Assembly (NCBI RefSeq): GCF_037975245.1
Contig: NC_092565.1
Location: forward strand, 15,343,499-15,407,498
DNA: 64,000 bases
Source: Apostichopus japonicus
Taxonomy: Eukaryota; Echinodermata; Holothuroidea; Aspidochirotida; Stichopodidae
Reading direction: 5' to 3'
In this document: positions 16,762-64,000 of the stretch, piece after piece
Layout of the letters: each line of letters starts with the position of its first letter
How positions within the stretch are numbered: position 1 is the stretch's first letter
Program-made: the position numbers and the translations under genes
Notes under the pieces: generated by a model
What the model saw: the letters and a program-made list of their open reading frames with translations, nothing else
Database searches by the model: none
What the model was told of the DNA's origin: nothing

Positions 16762-19700
16762 ATGACAAAGGTTTGTATTAGTTATGAATGTGAATAAGAA
16801 GTGCATAGATTATCGGAAGGTTTAGTCCTTCCCGAATTGGTACTCTCCATCGTTATCATCTGATGAGTTTCACTAGACCAAGTCAGACTTCGGAACAACC
16901 AGCCTCATGCACTTAGCAAGGCTAGGCCTATATAGCCTTACAATAGCCTATCCTAAGTCAGGCAAACGTTAGTCCAATGCCCAGTGAATGATTTATCGTT
17001 TAAATTCTGTGTAGCAGTTTGAAAGCTCTTCACTTTGTCTCATATAAAGTACTATAGTTTCTGTGTGCAAAAACTGATATGTATCTTTGCACTTGTAATT
17101 TGTAATAGCAAAATGTCCATATTGCGATGCAATACAATTACTGGTTAAATTGTTCCATGAGGCCAATGCAAAGTTACCCATGACAACAAAGATGCATCAA
17201 TATAATTGGCTTGTTAGGCCTAGTGATGGCTGACAAATAATAACACAAGTAGGCATTTTTTTGCTGAAAAAAAAGGAAGTGACATGATTTCTGGTGGAGT
17301 ATGTTTTCACCTAAGGCAACATTGGCCACGGGTAGGGCATAGGCACAGGATGTGCTCAGTCAAAGGTTGACACTCTGTTTTGGGTACCAAGTGACACTCA
17401 GTCAATGGTACAGAGTTACACTTGGTCACAGATACAGGATGACACTCATTCAAGGTTGATACCCAGTCAAATGTGCAGGATGATACCTATTACAACATAT
17501 CCTCTGTATCCTGTCATTCCAAGGGCTCAATGGGCAAATCTTTTAATATCTCATGGATCGCTTCTTGGCCTTTTGGCTAAGATCATGTGTAGTATCTGTT
17601 CCCTTTCGAGGGGAATGGTGATGCACACCTGACGATGATCACACAGTCACAGTCCCGATGCAAGGGGACTGGGGTTAGAAGTGGATCAGTCGTTCAGTAG
17701 TTTGGTTTTCATGCCCAGGTTCTTTCCTGGGCGACTTTTTCTTAAAAAGTTTCTTTTAATATCTCATAGAACATTCATTCAAAGATATCTCCCACATGGG
17801 GTTAATTTTTCTTAGCTACTTTTGCAACATTACATAAGGTTAATCTGAGATTATATTTCTGCTCCATAAATGGTATTCAGTTGTAGTCTTGACTTATTTC
17901 CAGAATTGTTCTTTCTATTGTGGCTGGGTACATACAGTATTTGGTTCACAACATGAGCTTAAAATCTTGAGAAAGCTTGTCACATTAAAAGTAGAATGAA
18001 GATAAAGATGATCCTCAAGTAGCTTTGCTGGATCAACTCACTTTCATATCAGATGTACTAGTTTACATAAAGGATTCAGGGCTGAATACAATCTGTTGTT
18101 TCAACTAACTGTTGAGACTAATATAAAATTTAAGCCTTTCCTGCAAATTCATAACATTTTACATAAAACCTTAAACTAGTATATTTTTGGGGGGCCCATG
18201 GAATATGTCTTTGAAATGTTAAGACATTTTAATGGAACATTGGAAACAAATGGCAAGTTATCTTCATTTTTCAATGTTTCCTTCAGTCATGGGCTAGCAT
18301 TTGACAAAATCAACTGTAGTTTAACTTCCTCTTGTGAAGTAACTGTTATTCACAGACTACAGTAACACATCTTTTTTTTGTGCTTGATTCTGCAATTGCA
18401 TGGATAGAGATGTTACATTGGAAACACAATCAGATGGGGGAAAATGATTGCAGTGATGAGCAAAGTGTTGAAGGGAACCTTTTGAAACTGCTTGCTTACT
18501 TTTTCTTTGACAGGGCAAGGGTGGAAGATCGTCCAAAGGGGCGAAGGGGAAGATGAGTCGTGTGAAGAAAAGCAACATCAACTCTAACAAAAACAGGAAA
18601 GCAACAAACCCTGTGCAATCTACCAACAAGAAAGATTTACCCATCAAGAAACGCACCAATTCATGGAAAGGTTCAGCAATCGGAAAGTCCAGAGGAAAAG
18701 ATTTTGGTAAAGAGAAGAAAAAAGTATGGCAGAAGAGGTAAACCAGTAGTAACCTGAAGTATTTATGACATTCACTAAGCACATGATGGCCTTAATTGCA
18801 CCTGGTCTAGCATTTATGTTAACAAAGCCTTACATCATCATGAAAATGTTTGATTGATATTCTTTTCATGAGTAACTTCCAATCGATATCATTTATTTAA
18901 TGTTCCTTGTTAAAGCAAGACTGGAAACTTCAACAACTGTAGAAATGACATCAAAGATCTACTACTGCTTGAATAATTTATGTTTGTCTTTCCTTTTTTT
19001 TTTCTTTGAGAGAGGTGGTACTTAGTTTGCTTACAGCATCCATACTGTTTTCTTTCATTATGTAGAAAAAAACTGTAAAAAAAGGATAAATAAAATGTTT
19101 TCACTTTCTTGTAGCTTAGTATGGCATCACACTTGACAAATGGTCACCGAGGGAAATTTCATAGAAACCATGATAATTGTTAAGCAGTGTAAGACTTTCC
19201 CTTTGCTTGTTGTGTATAGTTATCCACCACAATCTTCATACTGTATTAGAGTTACAAATAAAAGAAGTAATTCCTATGACATTGTGTCAAAAGTATTAAA
19301 AATATGTGTGTCTGTGACCTTTTGTGAAGATTAAATGTCCTCAGTACATATTATTTAGTGATATGATTAATGTGAAGTGTCTGATTGCATTTCATTCAAG
19401 TAGATGTCTGTTACTGAGCTGTTGTCATTTTTGCTTTCAGACCAGAAAGCAATAAAATTGAGATGCAGGAGGAGGGAGAAGAAGAGAGTGACGTAGATGA
19501 ACAATATGAAACATTACAGGAAGAAGAAATTGAGTATCTCAAAAAACTATCACAGGGGGAATTCTTGAAGGGTATTGATAAAAAGTAAGTTGTCAAAATA
19601 TTATATGATACATACAAGTTTTTGCTGTGACACCTTTTTCCAAAAATAAAAATTGTTATCTTTGTTGCAGATTCTCTCCATTGTGGAGGAATATTGCACA

Positions 19701-31700: not shown

Positions 31701-33408
31701 GCCATTGTTGACAGATCTGTACATAGGTTGTCTTATTACAACACAGACAAGATTGTGTACCTCACAAGCTTACACACTCTGTATTGATTAATTTGGCTTA
31801 TTGCCAAATCATTGGTAGAAATGGTATCAGCGTGAATCACCTCCATAGACCTATTAAAGGATGACTTTAGGGACAAAATTCATATCGATGTGTTGCAGAC
31901 CATGAAAGAATGCTGCTAGTATATATTCCTCTACCATTTTTAATTTTGGAAATGCCCCTTTAAACATCTGTGGCTCATGAGTTTAAAGTGATTGGACTAA
32001 TGATGGCACACAGATCTTTAGGTTCCTTAGATGCAACAGCAAAATCAATAGAAAAACAGATGACTGTTATGGCCTGAAATAACATGTTTACAATGCATTT
32101 CAATTGTCATAGACAAATGGTGTTGAACATCTTCCCAATGTGTTCTGTTGTTTTACATGAATGTTTCTGTTTAGTTCTGTGTAACATGTTGGATTCATAT
32201 AAGGTCTTAACATTAAGCCTCAAATGAGCATTGCAGAGATTTGATACATTTTACAGGTGAATATCATGAAACCTGGAATAGCCACAGAAACAATATTTGT
32301 ACTCAAATTTCTTCCCCTTGTTCTATGACATAACAAGGTCCTCCTTTAAACAGTTGTCATGATATTGCTTTTCAAGAGATGTGGATCCTGTAACTACAGG
32401 CTGGTTGGCTTTTTACCTCTGATATATAGCATTATTAAATAAACCTAGCATATTTCATGAGCTACATTATCAAGTCACTACTGTGTCTTATTTTGCCATA
32501 AGCAAACAAAGGGAATTGGGAACCTTGTTAGGCCGTGTATTGCACCTTGACAAAGACTTAGCAGATTGCAATTTTCTCTCACATTTTTATTTTTATGAAA
32601 ATGTAAATTTACCTTCAGAAAGTGTTCAGTCTGTCATGCCACTTTTGTTTCTTCACAGGAGACCGTTAGAGTTGTTTCAAGATTTTGATCCGTCTACAAT
32701 GGTATTTAATCCACCGGTTTTGACAAAACCTCTCAGCAAAGTTACAAGGTCAAAGGTAAGTTATTACACACTAATATTGATTGACATTGAGGTTAGTGAT
32801 GTAGATGTATTACAAGTATCTTTATCATATCAAGTAGCAATGGCTTATGATAACATTATGCATGATTTGTTTGACACATTGAGAAATATGATGATTTGGG
32901 GTGAAATTGACACACAAAATGTCTTTAAGCATTCAGTACTTACCTTACAATATCTAATCTATACATTACATCTTAGTTCTATTATTGAATCTTACAATGA
33001 CTATAACTAATCCCTGCATAAAATATTAATTCTTTTACTGTCTTACAATGACCATATCGAATCTCTACATAACATCTTAATCCTATTACTGTATCTTCTC
33101 TTCGCAAGGCCTACGGTAAACGTAACTTTGATGAGTTCTTGCAACCAGACTTCCAATTGCTTGCTGACGAGTATCTTAACCAGCCTATACCGGAATTAGA
33201 AATGGACACATCATCAAAGAAAGAGAGAGTTCCACGGAAGAAGGAGGAAGTGATTCACAAAAAGATGAAAGAATTGAAAGAGGTGAAAGGGACCATGGGA
33301 CAGAAGGCCGCAAAATCATCCAATCGCTACACGAAGCTAAACAGGCAAAGAAGAATGATCTCCCTTGGGAGGAGACGACGTCGTCATGTACTTAAAAAGA
33401 GCAACTAG
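16762..33408 (+). CDS. NOC3L: NOC3L, nucleolar complex protein 3 homologue
   Basis: Eighteen coding exons: 16762-16770, 18514-18737, 19441-19584, 20317-20564, 20963-21168, 22335-22496, 23106-23199, 23558-23763, 24087-24215, 24562-24693, 25449-25529, 25794-25967, 28239-28374, 29422-29603, 30157-30285, 31282-31379, 32659-32755, 33109-33408. All have GT-AG borders and compatible phases; the total is 2751 bases, about 916 residues. Noc3 pairs with Noc2 in pre-60S assembly in the nucleolus and has been linked to replication licensing. The first 250 residues are basic and acidic low complexity. Residues about 265-330 (KKLKTLRLL...[23 protein letters not shown]) match the NOC3 domain; about 560-760 ([17 protein letters not shown], then [12 protein letters not shown] and [15 protein letters not shown]) match the CBF/Noc domain. 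The C-terminus is basic. It is longer than the human protein (about 800), mostly at the N-terminus. The 9-base first exon (Met-Thr-Lys) is inferred; the 20963 acceptor has in-phase alternatives at 21007 and 21019. Confidence 0.93.
17330..17490. repeat. Short degenerate minisatellite
   Basis: About four to five degenerate units of about 34 bp carry the core GACACTCAGTCAA / CAGGATGATAC. They lie in NOC3L intron 1 just upstream of the U2-headed retroposon. Confidence 0.6.
17555..17751 (+). mobile_element. SINE-like retroposon with U2 snRNA-derived head
   Basis: From 17557 the first 45 or so bases match the U2 snRNA 5' end (ATCGCTTCTTGGCCTTTTGG, then the GTAGTATCTGTT branch-site region) with about two differences. 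After this it stops resembling U2: stem-loops IIa, III and IV and the Sm site are not recognisable. The body instead forms several hairpins: 17599-17615, 17617-17629, 17650-17671 and 17713-17732, the last followed by a T-run. Perfect 16-bp direct repeats TCTTTTAATATCTCAT flank it (17539-17554 and 17752-17767), the signature of target-primed insertion. So this is a retroposed chimera, not a working U2 gene. It lies in sense orientation in NOC3L intron 1. Confidence 0.82.
19800..20045 (-). mobile_element. tRNA-derived SINE, copy 1
   Basis: Read on the minus strand from 20045, it begins GGAGGGCATTGTAGTCAAAT. It has an A-box-like TAGTCAAATGG and a B box GGTTCAAGTCC at tRNA-like spacing, then a body shared with 37170-37416 (stretches around GGACACAACATAATG and GTAGCCACAAACCGG on the plus strand). 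The gene-like part is not a complete tRNA: it has no convincing acceptor stem. It lies in a NOC3L intron, opposite to the gene. Confidence 0.75.
21340..21965. repeat. Minisatellite, about 39-bp units
   Basis: About sixteen units contain ATCATGCACTCATG and GCAATGTGTGCATG. Units alternate between types with GAGCAGTGTGTGCATGAC and with GTAGCAATGTGTGCATGC. Overlapping open frames of 85-120 codons give His/Cys/Met-rich repetitive peptides that are by-products. The array lies in the NOC3L intron after exon 5. Confidence 0.9.
24872..24956. repeat. (TA)n-rich microsatellite
   Basis: Interrupted TATATA and TATACA runs occupy about 85 bp in a NOC3L intron. Confidence 0.9.
26473..27821. mobile_element. 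Non-autonomous hAT-like element, 1349 bp
   Basis: The left end is TAGCGTTGTGCGGTAGTC. The right end, on the other strand, is TAGGGTTGTGCGGGATCCCG. Perfect 8-bp duplications GTGCATAT lie at 26465-26472 and 27822-27829. The subterminal regions are rich in CCGGTA/ACCGGGAT motifs. No open frame exceeds 82 codons and none is transposase-like. It lies in the NOC3L intron between the exons ending at 25967 and starting at 28239. Its ends are unrelated to the CAGTGGCGG elements elsewhere. Confidence 0.88.
28340..29165 (+). repeat. Minisatellite derived from a coding exon end plus its splice donor
   Basis: About seventeen units of 48-50 bp share the pattern TATATGAACTTATTCAGTG, then CATGCAGGTAAAGAGATTCT. 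The first unit is the 3' end of the NOC3L exon ending at 28374, encoding [10 protein letters not shown], followed by the genuine donor GTAAAG. Later units repeat both the coding bases and the GCAG|GTAAAG donor, so most keep a possible 5' splice site. The second unit even reads on in frame ([10 protein letters not shown]). The homologous vertebrate stretch has the same exon peptide without a repeat, so the exon is the source. The next acceptor is at 29421. Confidence 0.92.
30704..30730. repeat. (GT)n microsatellite
   Basis: A short GT dinucleotide run lies in a NOC3L intron. Confidence 0.85.
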
Positions 33409-54735: not shown

Positions 54736-57700
54736 TTGTCCTTTTTGGGGAGAAGACCTCCAGACCCCTGCATGGGAGTTGGCTTCAGCTACCCCAGGGC
54801 CACATTCCCGCCTAATTATAATCCTGAAATCACACTTTACTTTAGTAATTATGAGAAATAATATACATGAAGTGCAGAAGTGCTAGGCCTATGCATGATG
54901 TAATCATGTAGGCTAGTTACTATAGCTCAATTAGAAAACATCGACATTACATACTTTGATGTGAGAAACGAAATCAATGTTATTAACTATTATAATGTGT
55001 AGGTACTGCTTCCACGAAAAACACATGGAATTTCGTAATATTTATATATTTGTGTATAGGCTTACCTTAGGTTATACGCTTAGAAGATGATGTTATAAGT
55101 TACTGGCAGGTTGAATACGAAGGCGCTTACACTAGTTGATACTTTGGTAGCGTCAAATCCCTGTGCAGCTAGTTTATAGTACTAGTTGACTACTTGTAAG
55201 TTGTAACCACATTTGAAGTTGCAGTGGGCAATGGATACTGAGTCTGAGAACCTTCCAACGCAATGCATTACGTTGCAAGTTGCATTCAGTGATTAGTAGG
55301 AAGTACAGAGGGTAAATCGCATTGACAACCGATGCCGATATCAGTCAGAAAATGCGGGCATGATTGTATTCAATTCTGTTATAGTTTGATACGAATGTAT
55401 TCAATTTTCGGAAACATGATGTTACCCTTATCGAACGCAGGCCGGTTCACAAGTAGGTGGGTTATATTGGCGTGCCATGGTTCAGACGGGGATTTTTTTT
55501 AAATTCAGCCGGGGAAAATATGACCACTAGCTGCTATACCAGGGGCTTAGGGCTATAGCTAGAACTCTAGCTGTTTTAATGAGAAGGCAAGCAATGATTC
55601 TAGAGGGCAGACATGACCTATTTTCTAAATAAAGAAAGAAGCATTTTCTTACGACCCCCCACCCCACTCTCCCGTGGCTACGCCACTAATTGCTACGGGT
55701 GTATACCCCTTTCAACCTCCCCCACGCCCCCAGGAACTTTATCTCCCAACGCAACCATGGACCATCAATGTCAAACACCAACAATGTTTCTGAGAATGCA
55801 CCACCTGATGTCTAAACTGTTTAACGACCCCCGCCGCGTACCCCACTGTCACACGAACTTCATTAAATCATTGACCGCGCTGGCCCTTAAAATACAAGTC
55901 ACTTATTCCCATACCTAACTCATTCGTATGAAATAATCACTTCTTCCGCTTCCCGCGCACTTTTAAAATCATGTGCACGGCATCGGGATGGGGGGGGGGG
56001 GTGAGGCGACGGATGTGTACACTCCACTAGTTTTCAAATTCACACTTTCCTGTTTAGGGAATGTTCTTCATTCAGGGGGGATGGGTTGAATTCTTCACGG
56101 ATCCCTTTCCAAGCTAAAAGATTTCGAAAATATTTTGTTTTAAAGAAAGAACCTGGGCACGAAAAACTGAACGACTGATCCGCTATCAGCCCCTTGCATC
56201 GAGACTGTGGCTGTGTGATCATCGTCAGATGTTTATCATGGTTCACCAGGAAGGGACACATAATGCTACACATGATCTCAGCCGAAAGGCTTGGGAAGCG
56301 AGATTCCGTAAATTGTCTCCTTTCTACAAGAAAGTTAACAATTTCCTACATTATTGTAAACAAGTCAACTATTGCATCATAGCGATTCTGTGGATTTGAG
56401 AAAATAGTGAACACTGTCATCCAGTTTAACACAAGTAACACCATCTTTCAACTAAATAACAGAAAAATCCATATTTATGTAATATTCCCAGTAACGTGCA
56501 TGATTCATTGGACACAATCATATGTGAACCGACATGCATTCCCTAATGAGAATATTACCCACATTAAATTGGGTAACACCTGCTCTACGATTATGCAAAT
56601 GAAACAATATACCAAATGTATATGCAAATTGATACAAAATATTAATAAAGTGTAATTATACATTCACGCAAAGGTTAAACAAGTATATGCTTTTTATCGA
56701 TAATTTATTTCTTAATCAGGAGCGAAGGTGAAATTAATAAGTCATGCATAAATAAATCAGCTTGGGATTTTTTTTTTGTCACGGTTTATTTAGAGTGCTC
56801 AAGGCCACAGTAGTTATCGACTTCACTGTCGCCGAGATAATGCATTTCAGATTTTCAGCAAAATGCGTAGTTTGTAGGAAAGCGAATGTCAGAAGTATTG
56901 ATCATCCATCGCATTTCAGTGTAATTCATTACTTATTTTCTGTAAACTGACGGTTACAATACGGTTTCTTTCAATGACCAAAAATAAGCTGAAGTATAGT
57001 TAATCATCTTTCCTATGTTACTTTCTTTTTCAATTGACCTAAAAACGAGACCCATAAGAACGACCACAACTAAGGTCTTTTTTCGTTCTTATGCAATTAA
57101 TCAATGCTAACCCACGTAACTGGCGCCCTACATATATCTTAAGCCATGAATACCGTTCCGAACTTTCACGTTATCGTTTTTGATTAATCAGTAGTTCAGC
57201 GGTACCAAACTATTGTCTAATATTCGGGTTAATATGTTGTGAAGCAATATAAACACGTTATAATTCTTCAAATATGTTTGTTTGAAATCCACTTGAGAGT
57301 AAATCGTCTTAAGTTAACACCTACCCCCCCCCCTCCAATGACGTCACTAAACCTGGGCGGAGTAAGCTGTAATGTTACGGAAACGACATGTAAACAATTC
57401 GTATTCCGGCAGAAAGAGTTTCCAAGGGTGTTAACGCATAAAAGAAAAGATGGACGAGGTTTCGTATGGTATTTTGAATAATAATATTTCTATATTCTAC
57501 AAACAATGTGGATAATAAAGGTGAATGGTACAATCAAGTGAATAACAAAGAATAGTTAACTTCAGTCGCCAGATAGAAAGAAATAACTTATCTATTAAGA
57601 CTGGGTCTGAAGTCGATGAACTCGATGGTGTAATATGGCTGGGCCTTTGCGATGATCTGAGATAAAGAGTGCTTCATCAAAAGGCGAGGCGCGGAATTTA

Positions 57701-60573: not shown

Positions 60574-61638
60574 TTATTTGCAAAGTAGGTTCTTACAATC
60601 TCGGCAAAACTGCTTGTTGGTAAAGCTGTAGACAAACGGGTTAATTGCGTGGTTTAGTACAGGACAAAGACGCATGACTGACACAATAGTTACAGCAATA
60701 CCATTTGGATTCCAATAATCCGTAAAAGCTTTGAATGAAAACAGAATAATGGAAAGCAACCACGTCACTGAAAAGATCAAAGTTGTCGCCAGTAACATCC
60801 TTGTCATTCGAGATATTACATTTCTCTTTTCAGGCATATCTTGCAATTTCTTGACCTCCCTCTTAATGCTCTGTGGTTCAAGCTGATCAACAATTGGTTT
60901 CTGTTGGTTGTCGCTTGTTGTCGCCTGAGACCGCATTTCTTCATTGCATTTATCACTGCTGCAGGCCCGGTCCTCGCTACATCCTTGGTTTCCAGCACCT
61001 GGTACAGTAATCGTCCCGATAGCCGCCAAGATTTTACGGCTCTGCTTGCGAACTCTTATCCATATCTTTATATAGATCACGGAAAGTATTGGTAGGGCGA
61101 TCAATGGCGTCAGGAACCTCGGCAGTTGAAAGAGGTAGGTGTACCGGTAATCGTTGCCGTGTGGTACACACGCTGTGTAATTAAACCCAAAGTAACGTTG
61201 TACCTTTAAAGTTATAGTAGCCGAATAGACTTCGGGAAGGGCTAGAAGAACAGCAAGGACTACACAAAGGGCTGTTACATTCGCCGCTTTTCGACGAGTC
61301 CAGCGACCGGTGAGAGGTCTACAGATGGCTACGTACCGGTCTGCAGCTACGGCCAAGGTTAGGCCAACAGAAGTGTACCAGCCGACGGATTCCGCTGCAA
61401 TTGTCACCTTACACCCAATAGCGCTTGGGTAGTTCAGTTCAAGAACATAGTAATGTATCGCCAAAGGTGAAACAAAACAAACGTAGAGATCCGCTATGGC
61501 TAAAGCATTGATGAAAAATTGGGCACTTCCGAGGATCTTTCTTCTCTTGTAAACAAATAATATTAATATGTTGCCAGGAATACCGACCAAGGACACAATA
61601 GAACGATATAGCACAACCATCCACGCGTACAGATACAT
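60574..61638 (-). CDS. Rhodopsin-like (class A) G protein-coupled receptor, orphan
   Basis: A single open frame of 354 residues. TM1 carries Gly-Asn (22-23) and TM2 Asp50. Cys76 before TM3 pairs with Cys157 in extracellular loop 2. Asp-Arg-Tyr is at 100-102 and Asn-Pro-Phe-Val-Tyr at 333-337. The third intracellular loop is long (about 195-275), polar, with several Cys/Ser. The tail is short with three cysteines (CRDCKNLLCK), possible palmitoylation sites. The TM6 motif lacks the usual Pro (VTWLLS). An Asn-Tyr-Thr N-glycosylation site lies in loop 2. The extracellular N-terminus is only about 7 residues, and an in-frame stop lies a short way upstream of the ATG, so the gene is either truly short-tailed or has an unseen upstream exon. 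The ligand is unknown; the overall look is that of a peptide or amine receptor. Confidence 0.9.
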   Translation of the reverse strand: MYLYAWMVVLYRSIVSLVGIPGNILILFVYKRRKILGSAQFFINALAIADLYVCFVSPLAIHYYVLELNYPSAIGCKVTIAAESVGWYTSVGLTLAVAADRYVAICRPLTGRWTRRKAANVTALCVVLAVLLALPEVYSATITLKVQRYFGFNYTACVPHGNDYRYTYLFQLPRFLTPLIALPILSVIYIKIWIRVRKQSRKILAAIGTITVPGAGNQGCSEDRACSSDKCNEEMRSQATTSDNQQKPIVDQLEPQSIKREVKKLQDMPEKRNVISRMTRMLLATTLIFSVTWLLSIILFSFKAFTDYWNPNGIAVTIVSVMRLCPVLNHAINPFVYSFTNKQFCRDCKNLLCK

Positions 61639-64000
61639 TTTGATAACAAGATATTCAAAAACTGCTCTTAATTAGTTAAAGTTGAGAAAATGTTATAGTA
61701 CGCATCCGATTTTTAACCTATATTCTACCTTATGTAACTAATTGATCAGTCTTTGAAATGCCAAGAAATACATAACATTTTAATTCCACCGAAAGTTTGA
61801 CAATAAGTGATGCATCCGAAATCATTTCTGTCACGGATTTGTTCGAATCTTTGAAATGACATGATTCTACGACAAACCATAACGTACACTGAGAAACGAA
61901 TTCCAAGTTTCATTGAGAATAGACAAGGTTGTCGATGCTTTTTTAAAATACAGGGCAGGCTAATGTCAAAACAAGTATTTTGATTGGTCGAAAGGCAACT
62001 GATCGTGCTTATTAATAACTATCCGCAGGAAATGTTTGTGACGTTGCAGTTTGTACATCAGCCTTTGCAAGCAGATCTCTACAGAGGTCGTACTATACAT
62101 AATCGTTTCATTGGCTTACACACTAAAATTGTTACTTTCAAGGCCCGCCAAAGCAGAGAGAAGTTTTCAAACTGGCATATATTACCCACCAAAATGTCAT
62201 GATGAGCTGAGATTTTGGCCTGTCATGATTGACACTTGCAAAATTTCCATATCATGACAGTTTAGATTTTGAGCTAGAAGAGGAGCAAGTTTAGCACACT
62301 GAACCCCAACCCTTGCATCTGCTCGTTGGGAGTAATATCAACATTAAACCAAAGAATTTTTTTTAATGGTTTATATCACCTAGTTCAAACCTATCTATTT
62401 TCAAACCATCTGGAGTCGAAAACGCATGAGGATTGTCACAAAAGCACAATGGTTAGCCAACTGAGGATTTTGTTTTGAAAATCAGACACGTTTTCGCGTT
62501 TAGTTTTACTTATAATAGGTAACAAACGACAACACGGAAAAAATGGCAGAATTGTCCTTTAACTCATTTTTTTTTAAATAATTGTTCATAACTTATAGAA
62601 ATGTTTGATATTTTGTTTCGCTGCAATCAGTTTTTAAGTGTTAGATATAAAGTCTTTATGAATTTTAGATGTTATGTGAAATGAAAACTAAAACTCTTTG
62701 CAATAATTAAGTTTCCTCCCAGTTTTTGAAAATCCCTACTAACTGGAGATACCCGGTACCTTTATAATGAATATTATATGCACCTCACGCAATTACGTTT
62801 CCCGCGTTTTCGATTTACGTCTTGGGCGAAACTGGTAAGGTTTGAACATTTCTTACCACTCCTTTGTATGCGTTCACATCCTATGAAAATGTCGAAAAAG
62901 ACTGTTCTGTGTGCTCCTGACAATTAATTTGTAAGATTTAGGTTAATGTAAAGTTTGTACATCTATGCATTGTGGGTATTACAATCACTTTCCACGCACA
63001 TATTAATACACACACAAACACGTTGTAATTTGTTTTCTCAAGATTCCATCACAATTACAGCAATATAAGTTCTTTTTCTTTCTTGAAACGGTGAGTCAAG
63101 ATAAAGTCCTTGGAAACGGTTTTTTAAGCAAATGACGTCAGATGCAGACGTATGCCTTTTGTAGAAATCAATGTTTGACATTGACATGTTAAAAAGGACG
63201 TAATATGTTTTAAAAAAAAGTACCGCCTGAAAGATTTGTAACAGGTATTTGCATGTATTATCAGGCAGACCTAATCAAGAAAGTATAGCAATAAGCATAA
63301 AACATCAGCTTCATAACAACAGTTATTACTAGCTCTAATTGTAAATGAAGGTCACAGTAATGCTGAGGTTTTGTGATCAAAGTGATGGAATATTCTCCAT
63401 ATAATCAGGGGCTTGCATTTCATTAGTTATCATAGTGTTATGTCAATGGATGATTATTGCGTAAGATTATAGTACTGAAATACCGAGATAAGCATGTCAA
63501 GTTTACCTGTAATTCCTACAATTACGAACGTATATAGCGTTATTAAGGTCTCCAATCCATGTAAGAGTGAAAAAGATAAAAGCTCTGTACATAAAAGGAA
63601 GCTTGTTGGCAATATCACGAAACAGGATTGTTATAGTTGAGTGCACTTTTATTTGAAAATGCAAGTACTAATTCAGCGTACTTAAAGTTTACAGTATCAA
63701 GAACGAGTACCTCAATTATTTGAGTACTTTTGATTGAGTACTTTACCAACCTTCCACTTATAACTGCTCTTTGATGGTCGTCGCTCGCTGACATCGGTAC
63801 ACCGTATTGTTTGTGGTAATAATTAATAGGCTACTGTAAGCTGTTACTAATTGATCGGTAGGTTAGCATCATATATATCTCCCGGTTCTGACTTGCTCAG
63901 TGATGACTAATTTGTCTCTTTCAGTAATGACTACCTTGGAAGAGTCAGGGCATATGAGGTACACCATATGTATTCTTGTGAACCTCATGTTAGAGAATAT
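61639..64000. other. Upstream flank of the GPCR, no gene recognised
   Basis: AT-rich sequence with short open frames only. No recognisable exon, RNA gene or element was seen. Confidence 0.5.

Follow-up and report, generated by a model that had tools for sequence, protein, structure and literature searches.

A SINE with a U2 snRNA head in Apostichopus japonicus, with U2 genes as its candidate source loci

Introduction

How does a short element that starts as U2 snRNA, and then ceases to resemble it, come by that start, and from what promoter could it be transcribed? These questions are raised by one locus in a stretch of 64,000 nucleotides from the holothurian Apostichopus japonicus (contig NC_092565.1, positions 15,343,499 to 15,407,498; here called the window), which an earlier reading made without database searches (the sequence-only reading) had described as a retroposon with a U2-derived head. 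Since snRNA genes have external promoters, the transcription of any snRNA-headed SINE is an open problem. A precedent reportedly exists in crocodilians, where the SINEU elements of Kojima 2015 are said to carry a head from a U1 or U2 snRNA gene. SINEs with snRNA heads are named as a SINE type in one paper (PMC7245038), and in the accessible text of the open-licence literature that we searched they surfaced solely through citations of Kojima 2015.

Results

The element in the window

Table 1. Features of the window, with positions counted from its first base.
Feature	Position	Strand	Basis
SINE copy, 194 bp, bounded by 16-bp target duplications	17557..17750		
5' target-site duplication TCTTTTAATATCTCAT	17539..17554	.	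Exact direct repeat of 17752-17767
GG, two additional bases between duplication and element start	17555..17556	+	Direct reading
Head, U2 snRNA nt 1-45, with stem-loop I and 3' end ...GTAGTATCTGTTC	17557..17601	+	Rfam U2 match; 44/45 as in host U2 (one difference); family consensus 45/45 (no difference)
Body, no relation to U2	17602..17712	+	U2 is the sole Rfam match above gathering; body conserved among aligned copies
Tail hairpin 1, GCCCAGG-TTCTTT-CCTGGGC	17713..17732	+	Fold
3'-terminal hairpin, ACTTTTT-CTT-AAAAAGT, end of element	17734..17750	+	Fold; same end base (alignment end at consensus position 194) in 50/69 copies
3' target-site duplication TCTTTTAATATCTCAT	17752..17767	.	Exact repeat; T at 17751 ambiguous
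Second, older SINE copy, consensus positions 2-170	56145..56301	-	blastn with family consensus, 77.8% over 171 alignment positions
Exon-like frames, presumably reminiscent of nucleolar protein NEPRO	32423..33408	+	Pfam: no match for these frames
Open frame, rhodopsin-type GPCR	60574..61671	-	Pfam 7tm_1, E 2.3e-32; indicative of an animal genome

The 16-bp direct repeats described in the sequence-only reading are indeed perfect. The Rfam U2 model matches the element with 52.9 bits (gathering score, 46; E = 1.2e-07), in an alignment that is near-identical over the first ~45 bases only and has little support beyond, in agreement with the abrupt loss of similarity that had been noted. The closing motif of the head, GTAGTATCTGTTC, is presumably the branch-site pairing region of U2. 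For the body, Rfam returned nothing besides U2 above gathering, the next model, Arrc11, being at chance level (E = 2.2), and a derivation from a tRNA or another known RNA was therefore rejected; ARAGORN reported no tRNA in 7 of 30 SINE loci. The predicted fold of the element (-77.8 kcal/mol; z = -5.25) was equalled in stability by none of 200 shuffles and places four more hairpin units 3' of U2 stem I. Thus, the earlier claim of at least three further hairpins stands, but that of a T-run as the end of the element does not, as TTTTT lies inside the terminal hairpin and the end reads AAAAAGT. Nor is the element the only copy in the window, as had been assumed, given the older copy on the opposite strand (Table 1).

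A multicopy family with target duplications

We searched the genome (671.6 Mb, 35 contigs) with a 49-base pattern spanning the head-body junction, which hence selects copies with that junction, and obtained 776 matches with at most three mismatches (386 forward, 390 reverse), compared to none for the reversed control. A search with the element itself scored the best 44 of 2619 first-look candidates, a figure that does not represent a copy number because only the best candidates are scored. From this search, 33 copies out of 30 loci were aligned first; adding 36 copies from 35 of the 36 loci chosen among the pattern matches gave the set of 69 copies used below, which excludes two old copies (the second one in the window and L013_2) and one locus with a match below 150 bases (L073). 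The consensus comprises 194 bases. One copy, L002, is identical to it and another, L015, departs from it by two small insertions only, a closeness that probably reflects recent activity. The alignment starts at consensus position 1 in 28/69 copies and within positions 1 to 6 in 55/69, and all 45 head bases are retained in 10/69. The body comes in two types that differ at several positions, type A with the motif TTAGAAG (27/69) and type B with TTGAGAG or CTGAGAG (29/69).

Target duplications are widespread in this set, which contains nested and duplicated loci (5' flank sequence is common to 16 pairs): a duplication score of at least 10 was reached by 35/69 copies, compared to 10/1350 mispaired flank controls, and a score of at least 12 by 22/69, compared to 3/1350. 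The proposals of a SINE family and of insertion by target-primed retroposition are thereby supported: the junction between head and body is common to hundreds of copies and the target duplications differ between copies, while neither a sole copy nor a host RNA locus lacking such duplications was what the genome search revealed. The element is a SINE, that is, a non-autonomous 194-bp retroposon made of U2 nt 1-45, a body of ~110 bases and two tail hairpins, and it forms a multicopy family that has spread through insertion with target duplications. Insertion is also serial, with three copies in L004 having the same target, ACCTTTCCTAT, and neighboring SINEs at or near the tail junction in L017, L080, L116, L120, and L121.

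Several loci show SINE copies within larger repeats. In a large inverted repeat on C16 (L032, 137-6401; arms of 2590 bp, 99.7% identical) and its counterpart on C3 (L103), each arm bears one and the same SINE insertion with TATTTTGGATAACTGGCTC duplicated, and the flanks of L118 (C16, 801 bp read) are those of this repeat, within which the SINE hitch-hikes. A further inverted SINE pair lies in 1230-bp arms with 99.4% identity (L101, C7:9233600-9237050). In L102 (C5:11042100-11047000), one SINE and several SINE fragments are present in each of two repeat units 3013 bp apart, and from there on to C5:11066034 eight consecutive exact junction matches occur at spacings of 2.7 to 4.1 kb. Finally, L011 and L122 have two tandem U2 head fragments at the 5' end of the SINE, which might stem from a jump of the reverse transcriptase onto another U2-headed RNA or from an insertion that hit a U2 head.

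The head matches host U2 but decays like the body

The host U2 genes were searched in the same genome. The best 46 of 40968 first-look candidates were all full length, 42 of them in one region of C16, many at a spacing of 645 bp, and 4 on C15. All six U2 genes that were read begin with the exact consensus head of the SINE, including a T at position 30, where the Rfam U2 consensus has an A. Most other animals likewise have an A at U2 position 30.

In pattern-chosen copies, counted without the positions of the junction pattern and those that define the types, head and body have decayed to a similar extent (33/867, or 3.8%, vs 93/3099, or 3.0%). Nothing in the dispersed copies therefore seems to keep the head U2-like. 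As the consensus head is nevertheless that of host U2, active copies would, most simply, obtain their head from U2 genes. The same counts bear on whether we are dealing with a mobile element at all. A family of functional U2-variant RNA genes would suit the strong fold, but it would hardly be expected to show head and body decaying alike, a U2 alignment that is so little supported past the first ~45 bases, or duplication scores of at least 8 in 44/69 copies (48/1350 controls); we regard this possibility as very remote.

We also looked for a promoter within the element. Pol III A and B boxes scored no better in the A- and B-type sequences than in 1000 shuffles, so that no recognizable internal promoter was found and an early impression of a B-box was dropped. 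Two further candidates were rejected. Heads that appear to comprise U2 1-50 (L024, L025, L032, and L103) were considered as varied junctions, but L028 and L117 present intermediate forms, and point changes suffice to explain the extra U2-like bases. The upstream sequence of the C15 U2 type was considered as a possible cover for a hidden source gene; the 150 bp in question match four places, each immediately 5' of a U2 gene.

SINE copies inside U2 genes

In the U2 genes themselves, we found SINE bodies that split the gene at one site, such that U2 runs to nt 45 or 53, is replaced by the SINE and is resumed from nt 38. Of the U2-embedded copies, L106 holds three and L124 two, while L109, L122, and L123 have one each. 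One gene of L106 reads U2 1-53, SINE 73-194, U2 38-193, and the two others read U2 1-45, SINE 46-194, U2 38-193; L109 holds a hybrid of the latter kind (U2 1-45/SINE 46-194) with one change in the head. In L123, the end of a LINE is followed by U2 38-53, SINE 124-194, and then U2, and in L124 U2 runs to nt 40 and is followed by SINE 94-194, ATCTGTTC, SINE 46-194, and then U2. L122, on C20, is different: a U2 copy ~90% identical to the gene contains U2 9-28, an A-type SINE (90.7%) with a head of its own, and then U2. The restart of U2 is ambiguous between nt 35 and nt 38, because the SINE, as well as LINE families B and C (see below), ends in AGT, which equals U2 35-37; the target duplications in the hybrids, ATCTGTTC and ATCTGTTCTTTTCAGC, begin at nt 38. 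A pattern for the junction between SINE tail and U2 had seven matches in the genome at up to three mismatches, six of them in the C16 array, while its control had none.

The 5' side of these insertions varies. Four distinct breaks occur in the array (U2/SINE, 45/46, 53/73, 53/124, and 40/94), which means that the insertions were independent. Upstream, the five hybrids covered by the comparison (three in L106, and those in L109 and L124) match the intact unit in 350, 350, 350, 349, and 348 of 350 bases. A dispersed copy in L004 shares 99.5% identity with two of the embedded copies (h2 and h3).

Given that the SINE sits at a fixed site in the U2 genes of the array, it is more likely that its head is the own leader of the host U2 gene than a fragment that was captured once. 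The contrary account is that of a conventional SINEU-type SINE. Its U2 head would have been acquired a single time, either by template switching from U2 RNA or because an element landed once in a U2 gene; its dispersed copies would since rely on flanking or cryptic promoters, and its embedded copies would be occasional by-products of the target preference of a LINE. This account could draw on the single junction in the 776 pattern matches, although the pattern selects for that junction, and on the distribution of the body types: all array copies read are of the B type, and the A type is represented among the embedded copies only by the decayed C20 locus, a U2 copy that had received a SINE already equipped with a head. 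For the A type, to which the window copy belongs, no intact source was thus seen. Chimeras of LINE-1 with U1 to U6 snRNAs have moreover been described (PMC13174262). However, a head captured once fits poorly with A and B boxes that do not exceed chance, with a consensus head identical to host U2 in body types that have diverged at several positions, and with the intact upstream side of the five embedded copies. We therefore consider a single capture unlikely, while giving it some weight.

LINEs at the same site

The U2 site of the array is also occupied by LINEs, which, given the matching site, may be Keno-like. In L105, a LINE lies within a U2 gene and encodes zinc knuckles in ORF1 and APE, RT, and zf-RVT domains in ORF2; around this long copy, U2 breaks off at nt 30 (not 45) and continues from nt 38. 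Among nine sampled loci (L105 and L108 to L115), we distinguished family A (L105, L111, L112, L114), family B (L109, L110, L115), and family C (L113), with identities, for B and C read over their last ~330 codons only, of 30% between B and A (317 aligned positions) and 45% between C and B (296 positions). In all eight 3' junctions (L105 and L109 to L115), the LINE is followed by U2 from nt 38 onward. The ninth locus, L108, contains part of another LINE, of the kind seen in L107, and no U2. This is a different APE-type LINE of the C16 U2 array, with an ORF2 of 961 aa, and its copy in L107 lies directly upstream of a U2 start and not at the nt-38 site.

The breaks of L111, where U2 to nt 43-45 is followed by a 5'-truncated family A LINE and then by U2 from nt 38, are nearly those of the SINE hybrids. 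This bears on the idea that the hybrids are products of recombination or of gene conversion, in which U2 genes would have exchanged sequence with dispersed U2-headed SINEs, and that the LINE moving the SINE has no specificity for U2. The head does offer 45 bases of homology to U2, arrays homogenize, and three of the embedded copies (h2, h3, and h4) have one break in common. Yet an exchange through the head does not make U2 restart at nt 38 behind the SINE tail, with ATCTGTTC or ATCTGTTCTTTTCAGC duplicated, and does not yield SINEs that are truncated at their 5' end and start at U2 nt 53, as in L106 and L123; one LINE, that of L111, moreover has nearly the same breaks. We hold this origin to be improbable.

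As to the LINE that would move the SINE, a comparison of the SINE tail with those of the three LINE families observed at the U2 site gave no match in sequence and pointed to none of them as the partner. A derivation of the tail from LINE A was rejected, the blastn pieces being short and at chance level.

Targets of dispersed copies

To describe the targets of the dispersed copies, 15 old, duplicated, or nested rows were removed from 71; 41 of the remainder have a duplication score of at least 8, and 40 were kept, as one could not be placed. At these 40 sites, the first base is A in 80%, the second T in 62%, the third C in 38%, and the fourth T in 53%. Dispersed SINE copies thus favor targets starting with AT. 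When the targets of the 41 copies whose 3' end is complete are compared to the U2 word ATCTGTTC, 3.66 of 8 positions agree, against 2.22 in offset windows (SD, 0.17), and 224 of 20000 permuted words do equally well. The signal resides mainly in the first two bases, being weak at positions 3 to 8 (1.95 vs 1.59 in offset windows; SD, 0.15; maximum, 2.0). In one case (L098), a SINE with ~15 extra 5' bases was inserted into the U2 head of another SINE, exactly at the site.

Discussion

Taken together, we think it probable that the SINE is moved by the machinery of a U2-targeting LINE, that its embedded copies behind the U2 promoter act as source genes and that its head is a leader renewed in each cycle. 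In such a cycle, SINE RNA would be inserted by this machinery into a U2 gene, where it would come to lie behind an intact U2 promoter, as suggested by the identity of the upstream sequence. A transcript from there would begin at U2 nt 1, so that its 5' end would be the U2 leader. Re-insertion of this RNA could follow, in U2 genes or, off target, at sites elsewhere that start with AT, and off-target copies would land with the head but without the promoter. The snRNA head would accordingly be a host leader, which could account for transcription in spite of the lack of a recognizable internal promoter. We also lean, with a little more reserve, toward its genomic corollary, namely, that U2 genes would be the source loci of the SINE, a LINE planting it behind their promoters and off-target insertions spreading promoter-less copies.

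How does this compare to known systems? With a U1- or U2-derived head as the criterion, the U2-headed SINE described here would be of the SINEU kind, SINEU being known to us through citing papers. As far as those papers go, the two have the origin of the head from a U1 or U2 snRNA gene in common, but the host is another one and some copies of the SINE here lie within U2 genes whose upstream sequence is intact. Some features recall R2, which is co-transcribed with 28S rRNA and for which non-autonomous elements exist: both lack a promoter of their own and occupy one defined position in a multicopy RNA gene. In contrast to R2, the target gene of the SINE is U2, and most SINE copies are found elsewhere than in that gene and carry the leader of the host gene. 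Keno, a U2-targeting LINE with an apurinic-like endonuclease, resembles the array LINEs, which are putatively Keno-like, in their position at the U2 site, in the APE, RT, and zf-RVT domains of L105 and in the continuation of U2 from nt 38; the SINE differs from it in having another tail and no such ORFs. Utopia, a U2-targeting LINE with a restriction-like endonuclease, has the same target site in U2, whereas the LINE in L105 carries an APE. Utopia and Keno are stated to insert at the same U2 site: the U2 sequence that follows Utopia, which in Phytophthora begins with nucleotide 39, is identical to the one that follows Keno (PMC4640811).

The SINE and the U2-inserted LINEs use a common target site, with serial re-insertion at one site, and they may constitute a load on an array of genes for a splicing RNA. 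The embedded copies with intact U2 upstream sequence provide a concrete and testable answer to the problem of how such elements are transcribed. If the proposed cycle is true, the SINE would rent an external snRNA promoter rather than carry an internal one, and this might explain snRNA-headed SINEs in general.
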